Source: a virus
Strand: one strand, 5' to 3'
IMG/VR virus record: IMGVR_UViG_3300031825_000061
Location: 1 to 28,744 of that record
DNA: 28,744 bases
Numbering within the stretch: the stretch's first letter is position 1; the number at the start of each line of letters is the position of its first letter. A model generated the notes under the pieces. The model worked only from the letters and a program-made list of their open reading frames with translations. It had not been told where the DNA came from and made no database searches. The position numbers and the translations under genes are program-made. This document shows, piece by piece, positions 24,350 through 26,005 of the stretch.

Positions 24350-24623
24350 CTAGACCCCGGTACCACGGATGATCTGTTCGAGCTCCTTCACACCGGCCGC
24401 TCGCTGCTTGTCCAAATACGCCGCCAAGTCCATCAGGTGCACCCCCCCTAGCGGCCTTCTGGCTGGTTTCCATGCGCACCATCGGCAGGCGGATCCTGCC
24501 CGTGGAGACCTTCCGGACGAACTTGTCGAGGCTGAGATGGTAGAAGTAGTCGCGACAGACCTCTTCGACCGGGATCACCGCCCGGCCGTTGTACTGCGCC
24601 ATGAGGAGGAACGCTGTATTCAT
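24350..24623 (-). pseudogene. PrtN-like (pyocin activator family) regulator, frameshifted at a G7 run
   Basis: The first 59 residues, starting MNTAFLLMAQYNGRAVIPVE and including VCRDYFYHLSLDKFVRKV and RMETSQKAARG, match the PrtN/pyocin-activator family, which activates phage-tail bacteriocin or prophage genes and is common near prophage ends. After a run of seven G (24442-24448, C7 on the plus strand) the frame is lost. With six G the product continues VHLMDLAAYLDKQRAAGVKE then LEQIIRGTGV and stops at 24350-24352, giving about 90 residues, the normal family size. As read, translation runs into an unrelated tail to 24144. Slippage, phase variation, decay and sequence error are all possible. 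Confidence 0.82.
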
Positions 24624-24717
24624 GGTGCACCCTACCGCACCTGAGGAGACGCCGCCAGGACATTCAGGCTGTTGCTGCCCGGCACCTATACACTAGGTCC
24701 GCCGGAGGTGGTAACCC

Positions 24718-25212
24718 GTGCAGATCGACTTGGGCAATCTCTCGCCGCTGAGGATGATGTTGCCGTCGGAGCTGGTGCTCGCGACGAAGCTGACACGGAA
24801 GGTTGCACGCCTGCGTGAGCGCTGGCGCAGCACGAATTCCGGGAAAGATCTCGGCCCCGGCAAGGAGCGTGCGCTTTCCATAGACATCAGCGTCGCGGAA
24901 GGCGAACTCGAATCGCTTGTCGACGGCGTTCTCGCGCGGCAATTGGGTCTGAAGAGGTACATGGTGGTGCACGTTCAGCGAGACGGCGGCCACGAAGATC
25001 GGTTCCAGCTCCTCTCGGCCAGCGTCCACTTCGGCTTCACGTACCAGGGACACCGGTGGATGTGGGACTTGGAGGGGCGTCGACTTCGGAAGGACGGAAG
25101 CATCGGGGAGCGCCCCGGGGGCATGGCGATCGACGCTGGCGTGATCACCCGCAGGATGCTCGACGGGTCGTGGGTGGAGCTCCATCCGACGTACGCAGAG
25201 GAAGTCGCGTGA
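24718..25212 (+). CDS. unknown moron protein, first gene of a two-gene operon
   Basis: A 164-residue protein starting at GTG 24718, with a strong GGAGGTG seven bases upstream. A weak promoter (TTCAGG, 18 bases, TATACA at 24687) lies in the 94-base gap shared with the divergent PrtN-like gene. The protein is basic in the first half (LTRKVARLRERWRSTNSGKD), then alternating beta and helix (RYMVVHVQRDGGHEDRFQLL, FGFTYQGHRWMWDLEGRRLR). I recognise no family. Its TGA overlaps the GTG of the nucleotidyltransferase gene, so the two products are probably made together and may act as a pair. Confidence 0.72.
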   Translation: MQIDLGNLSPLRMMLPSELVLATKLTRKVARLRERWRSTNSGKDLGPGKERALSIDISVAEGELESLVDGVLARQLGLKRYMVVHVQRDGGHEDRFQLLSASVHFGFTYQGHRWMWDLEGRRLRKDGSIGERPGGMAIDAGVITRRMLDGSWVELHPTYAEEVA

Positions 25213-25838
25213 ACCTGCGGCCTGGCGAGTTGGTGTTCGGGGTGGCACCGGAGATCCTGGTGGATTGCGCGCGCCAACTCCGCGAGAAAGAGGAGCCTTT
25301 CTCGCTCGATGGGTTCAGCCGCGCGCTGGGCGCCCCGGTCGACGAGGCGGCGGACGTCCTGCAGGCGATGGTGTGCGATGGCTTCTTCCAGCAGGCCGCG
25401 GCCGGCACGTACACGGGCACCGCGAAGTTCAACCAGCTGGCGGCCTCCAAGATCAGCGAGGGCCTCACACGCTCCGCGGCCGAAGCGCTTCTCGCGCGAG
25501 TGGTATCGAAGGCTCGCCACATCAACGACCACCCGGAGGAATTTCAGGCGCGCGTCGATTGCATCGTGGTGTTCGGCTCCTACCTCGGCGACAAGCCGGT
25601 GCTGGGCGACCTGGATCTCGGCGTGCGGGTGTCGGAAGCCCCACGTGGGGACGCCGGTGCCGCGAAGCTTTCCAGGCTGCGGTGGCTGATGACGCACCAA
25701 TCCCCGACCGGGCGCGTCTTCAGCGAGCTTCGGCTTCGGAAGCCCGCGGTCGTTAGCATCCACCAGCTCGGCGAGGTGCTTGAGCTTGGCACGCCGTATC
25801 GCGTCGTGTTCGGCGCGCCGGCGGTGCCTGCCCCGTAG
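25209..25838 (+). CDS. winged-helix plus nucleotidyltransferase-fold protein
   Basis: A 209-residue protein starting at GTG 25209 (GTGA overlap). Residues about 12-75 look like a winged helix (FSLDGFSRALGAPVDEAADV, LQAMVCDGFFQQ). Residues 115-140 carry a pol-beta-type nucleotidyltransferase core, VDCIVVFGSYLGDKPVLGDL followed by DLGV: G123-S124 and D134-x-D136. The usual third acidic residue is not obvious; the expected strand reads PAVVSIHQ. Such proteins include toxin-antitoxin nucleotidyltransferases, adenylyltransferases and abortive-infection proteins. With its partner and its position beside the attachment site, a lysogenic or defensive role is likely but unproven. Confidence 0.74.
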   Translation: MNLRPGELVFGVAPEILVDCARQLREKEEPFSLDGFSRALGAPVDEAADVLQAMVCDGFFQQAAAGTYTGTAKFNQLAASKISEGLTRSAAEALLARVVSKARHINDHPEEFQARVDCIVVFGSYLGDKPVLGDLDLGVRVSEAPRGDAGAAKLSRLRWLMTHQSPTGRVFSELRLRKPAVVSIHQLGEVLELGTPYRVVFGAPAVPAP

Positions 25839-25960: not shown

Positions 25961-26005
25961 CTACGAACCAAGGGGTCGTGGGTTCGAATCCTGCCAGCCG
26001 CACCA
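25961..26005 (+). other. tRNA-Arg(ACG) 3' half, prophage attachment site
   Basis: From the anticodon loop CTACGAA (anticodon ACG, 25964-25966 lies at ACG) the sequence is a proper tRNA 3' half: CCAAG stem strand, GGGTC variable loop, GTGGG-TTCGAAT-CCTGC T-arm, CAGCCGC acceptor strand and encoded ACCA. The 5' anticodon strand, expected CTTGG, is replaced by GAAAT, and no D-arm is present, so this is not a complete tRNA. Integration in the 3' half of a tRNA leaves exactly such a remnant at one prophage end. GCGGCTG at 25949-25955 can pair with the acceptor strand. Confidence 0.8.

Follow-up and report, generated by a model that had tools for sequence, protein, structure and literature searches.

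Two-gene systems with a nucleotidyltransferase

The described systems closest to the locus analysed here are two-gene systems in which one protein carries a nucleotidyltransferase (NT) core. In the HEPN/MNT system MntA adenylylates HepT, and its signature reads GSX10DXD (PMC7641770). In the AbiE system a winged helix-turn-helix (wHTH) antitoxin represses its own operon and the NT is the toxin. The genes are arranged in the order AbiEi-AbiEii, i.e. the antitoxin precedes the NT, and the signature of the DUF1814 NTs is hG[G/S]x15DhD together with motifs III-IV (PMC3985639).

The right end of the prophage

The window, i.e. the whole 28,744-base virus record, represents a podovirus-type prophage, since it encodes a P22-like portal protein (PF16510, E=9.8e-152) as well as a terminase. 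Its right end comprises, in this order, a KilA-N protein, a PrtN-like regulator on the minus strand, the genes A and B, and the 3' half of a tRNA-Arg(ACG). The features of this region are:

24353..24623, minus strand: PrtN-like regulator (pyocin activator/excisionase-like; Pfam PF11112, E=2.5e-20)
24704..24708, plus strand: Shine-Dalgarno sequence of gene A, GGAGG, separated from the GTG at 24718 by a 9-nt spacer (read from sequence)
24718..25212, plus strand: gene A, from GTG 24718 to TGA, 164 aa, a basic protein (codon score)
25198..25202, plus strand: Shine-Dalgarno sequence GAGGA of gene B, located inside gene A, 6-nt spacer (read from sequence)
25209..25212, plus strand: start/stop overlap GTGA of A and B, 4 nt (read from sequence)
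25209..25838, plus strand: gene B, with its GTG start inside the stop of A, 209 aa, a fusion of winged helix and pol-beta-type nucleotidyltransferase
25961..26005, plus strand: attachment site, a tRNA-Arg(ACG) 3' half that extends from the anticodon loop as far as CCA; the bacterial side starts here

The initial annotation had described A and B as a cargo operon between a regulator and the attachment site. This agrees with the map, as the two are the sole genes between the PrtN-like regulator on the one side and the tRNA-Arg(ACG) half-site (attR) on the other. The start-stop overlap was likewise recovered, with a ribosome site for each gene. A sigma-70-type promoter was looked for upstream of the operon and none was found.

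The tRNA half-site is present in a single copy within the window, and a whole tRNA-Arg that matches it with 2 mismatches was found in another genome. Beyond the half-site the DNA encodes an HNH endonuclease, a MazG-like protein and a piece of an IS5 transposase, and it looks like bacterial chromosome. The similarity of the tRNA and the IS5 sequence suggests that the bacterial host may belong to the Burkholderiales. A scan of genome contigs with the portal alignment retrieved one contig, from a MAG labelled Acidimicrobiia, and was of no use for the placement of the host.

Among 50,697 phage records the prophage (window 1-24000) is nearly without DNA relatives, the exceptions being short matches to two Pseudomonas phages. 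The frame of the PrtN-like regulator is broken at a run of seven C (24442-24448; G on the coding strand) and a PrtN-like continuation is found in another frame, which is due either to a real frameshift or to an assembly error. In the genome G109 the intact tRNA-Arg and a second copy of its 3' half are about 107 kb apart (L010 and L011; G109:C1:1050729 and 1158388), which suggests that another element is integrated there at the same attachment site.

Coding evidence for A and B

The window is GC-rich, and even on the strand opposite to the A/B pair there are overlapping ORFs of 194 and 262 aa, so that the length of an ORF says little about coding. Codon scores were trained on eleven phage genes and compared with 855 wrong-frame windows. 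The frame of B reaches 0.349, a value higher than in all 855 of these windows. Its GTG start is independently backed, because the first residues of B align with the starts of its homologues.

The frame of A scores 0.091, which is above 97.5% of the wrong-frame windows and below every genuine phage-gene window. The latter, together with the lack of relatives and the low confidence of its structural model, is what would be expected if A were not protein-coding at all. We regard this as very improbable, since A is the best of the six frames, has a GC3 of 0.81 and is preceded by a strong ribosome site. The observations fit a real gene with foreign codon usage, with some doubt left.

Domains and active site of B

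The AlphaFold model of B (ma1654d8a08ab) was built from a five-sequence alignment and has a mean pLDDT of 71. The following features were assigned:

25248..25418, plus strand: B residues 14-70, predicted winged helix-turn-helix (AlphaFold model; Foldseek match to HmgR 5y6i, E=2.5e-4, and IclR-type regulators)
25572..25616, plus strand: B residues 122-136, FGSYLGDKPVLGDLD, nucleotidyltransferase motif GSx9DxD (sequence; Foldseek matches to pol lambda and MNT antitoxin 7ae9)
25689..25691, plus strand: B residue M161, near the column of a possible third acidic ligand (local MAFFT alignment with nine members of the family, judged by eye)

According to the model the NT core starts at residue 114. 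B fits the pattern hG[G/S]x9-13DhD of the pol-beta superfamily with F122 G123 S124 x9 D134 L135 D136 (FGSx9DLD), and the fold match agrees with this assignment. The two halves of the protein match separately in Foldseek, one of them wHTH regulators and the other pol lambda or the MNT antitoxin; the whole-chain TM-scores are low, as would be expected when the query consists of two domains. The combination of a winged helix with a GS...DxD nucleotidyltransferase core, as first read from the sequence, is supported.

The earlier suggestion that the second protein may lack the third acidic ligand is probably correct as well. M161 stands where the plasmid-encoded relatives L021 and L042 have D and others S, N or T, in a part of the alignment which is gappy and for which the model confidence is about 49-61. 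E173 is the sole acidic residue between positions 149 and 188, and it aligns elsewhere than in the third-acid column. As the third carboxylate seems to be absent, the transfer activity of B is doubtful, and its loss through absence of this acid is plausible. B was not assigned to any curated family in Pfam, NCBIfam, PADLOC or PHROGs, and exact 8-mer scans gave no match, which excludes close relatives only.

The B family and its loci

As judged from sequence, B belongs to a coherent and uncatalogued family of wHTH-NT proteins, which is rare, unnamed and mostly encountered on plasmids and viral contigs. Relatives were reached by a degenerate DNA motif for FGSYLxDKxxLGDxD and subsequent tblastn and profile searches. 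The motif scan revealed a true relative of B in two viral contigs. The tblastn and profile searches led to relatives on plasmids of Bradyrhizobium, Curtobacterium, Methylocapsa and Rhizobium, on another viral contig and in a few genomes. The identity between B and its relatives is about 20-31%. A profile made from the relatives, with B left out, retrieves B at E=1e-15 and does not retrieve any of 1000 shuffled sequences.

Full-length members comprise an N-terminal motif, the winged helix, a linker helix R..A..LL..IN, the NT core with FGS..GDxD and an [IV]SxH motif, and B conforms to this architecture. The N-terminal motif xLxPxxxIxGxP is common to B, L022, L029, L040 and L042. The fusion proteins encoded on plasmids of Bradyrhizobium (L021), Curtobacterium (L022), Methylocapsa (L040) and Rhizobium (L042) and on a viral contig (L029) are built like B, and both its core [FY]GS..GD[LI]D and its strand motif [IV]S recur in them. 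In contrast to the B locus, each of them has other neighbours, and gene A is present in none. L025 was counted as a remote member, L032 as a fragment and L041 as a broken copy, while the short MNT-like matches L033-L035 were left out due to their lack of a winged helix.

None of the relatives is matched above the cut-off by a model in Pfam, NCBIfam or PADLOC. Comparison with PADLOC gave nothing beyond weak matches of the NT core to PDC-S09, and L021 matches the NCBIfam model of MntA below the threshold (E=0.028). The single B protein was also searched against 369 genomes at the class level and 401 at the family level, with an E. coli genome and then G109, whose tRNA-Arg is nearly the same, as taxonomic centre. 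The matches were weak, and those which were read (all but L008, L015, L017 and L018) are antisense or spurious frames. The genome searches cover 1,997 genomes counted over overlapping sets, and absence from these is weak evidence.

L040 adjoins a gene for a PH-domain protein and L022 adjoins conjugation genes, and for L021, L026 and L042 no close partner gene is found. Because several relatives look solitary, B may need no partner. At the remote locus L025:922-5115 of genome G567 the B-like NT is accompanied by a GTPase-like protein of 761 aa and a protein of 401 aa without Pfam match, a three-gene run which looks like a defence operon.

In two viral contigs of 119 kb (L019:8352-9534) and 32 kb (L020:6592-7774) the relative of B overlaps a gene for an HTH and NADAR protein (NADAR domain PF08719, E=1.2e-23). 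NADAR enzymes can serve as antitoxins which reverse guanine ADP-ribosylation (PMC11125620). This overlap in the 119-kb contig and the position of the operon in a prophage would suit a module that serves the phage by superinfection exclusion, host takeover or counter-defence, and not by addiction. However, the NADAR neighbour is seen at one locus only, and we consider such a role improbable.

Gene A and the question of a recurring pair

The A protein has a pI of 9.1. It has no Pfam match even at E<=10 and no match in NCBIfam, PADLOC, PHROGs, PDB sequences, phages or plasmids. Exact 8-mers found nothing in IMG/VR, which excludes close relatives only, and no relative turned up in the 201 genomes searched from the family to which G109 belongs. 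That the first protein has no recognised family holds, therefore, for all libraries searched. Two weak matches in the 201 genomes were rejected, as L030 lies on the opposite strand of an mltG/tmk-like locus and L031 runs across a stop. The predicted fold is an N-terminal helical hairpin (residues 16-40 and 47-75) followed by beta strands, in a model of low confidence (pLDDT 58). WWE domains are its best structural match (E=0.04), which was set aside in view of this pLDDT.

The initial annotation had proposed that A and B might form a toxin-antitoxin or anti-phage pair, and had named rare co-occurrence of the two genes in a neighbourhood survey as a finding that would speak against it. All open frames of at least 50 aa in the loci of the B relatives were searched for similarity to A. 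The best of these 1034 frames reached E=1.2, i.e. no A-like neighbour was found, and an A-like ORF is present beside the B relative in 0 of 10 loci (one of which is a contig-edge fragment). In the available sample the two genes do not occur together, A was found nowhere else, and a conserved A-B pair is not supported by these comparisons. As the survey is small and the relatives are distant, the claim of a pair is lowered, not killed.

The two proteins may then be functionally unrelated, with B acting alone as a wHTH-NT regulator of mobile elements and A being an orphan prophage gene that is by chance on the same transcript. All ten sampled relatives of B have different or no close neighbours (L021, L042 and L026 stand alone) and A has no relatives whatsoever, which points in this direction. 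The start-stop overlap with its dedicated ribosome site argues against it, as does the fact that nothing else is encoded from the regulator to attR. We regard this explanation as nearly as likely as the mechanism proposed below, though rather doubtful as well.

Proposed mechanism and comparison with known systems

Our preferred reading, which is a tentative one, is that the pair is a moron operon specific to this lineage. B would control its own expression and might nucleotidylate or just bind nucleotide, and A would be the effector or the target. If MntA/HepT and AbiE are taken as models, the winged helix would allow B to bind the promoter from which it is expressed and to repress the operon, and its pol-beta-like core would nucleotidylate A, as MntA does HepT. 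Alternatively, due to the loss of the third acid, B would bind nucleotide without efficient transfer. A would be kept in check by B in the lysogen, and the operon might act as a prophage-encoded module for host benefit or exclusion. A further reading would make A-B a prophage module for defence or of the toxin-antitoxin type, hitherto undescribed, with an effector of new fold under the control of a DNA-binding NT-like protein that lacks the third acid; this appears quite unlikely.

If the proposed mechanism is true, the operon would be a variant of a toxin-antitoxin system or regulator in which DNA binding and NT-like activity reside in one protein. Mechanism aside, the B family is coherent, unannotated and borne by mobile elements, with changing neighbours, and the nine sequences gathered here could yield a profile for it.

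MntA of the type VII HEPN/MNT system (PF01909/NF047752) has, like B, a minimal NT core of the pol-beta type with GS and DxD, and the MNT antitoxin 7ae9 matches B in Foldseek (prob 0.94, E=0.012). In contrast to the GSX10DXD of MntA, B has the spacing GSx9DxD, carries an N-terminal winged helix and has probably lost the third acid, and it does not match PF01909 at E<=1. A is not HEPN-like by sequence, as judged from Pfam searches to E<=10 and from the partner signature RX4HXY. The only RX4H in A (R80-H85) falls on a strand in the prediction and lacks the XY that would have to come next, and the fold of the low-confidence model is other than a helical bundle.

The order of the genes is the one of AbiEi-AbiEii (PMC3985639), and B has a pol-beta core with DxD. 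On these grounds B could be a toxin, an NT with tRNA or something else as its target, and A, encoded first as in AbiE or MenAT, would be the antitoxin. However, B does not match DUF1814 at E<=1 and has a GS-D spacing of x9 instead of x15; its third acid is probably missing; and the DNA-binding domain is located on B itself, whereas AbiE has it on the antitoxin. We therefore judge a toxin role of B to be unlikely. No wHTH is recognisable in A, in either the low-confidence model or Pfam searches to E<=10. Neither A nor B matches the anti-phage models of PADLOC at E<=1.

By the features tested A-B falls outside both the HEPN/MNT and the AbiE systems. With AbiE and MenAT it has in common that a two-gene operon on a mobile element encodes both a winged helix and an NT of the pol-beta type, but the wHTH, which in AbiE is a separate upstream antitoxin, is in B fused to the NT.
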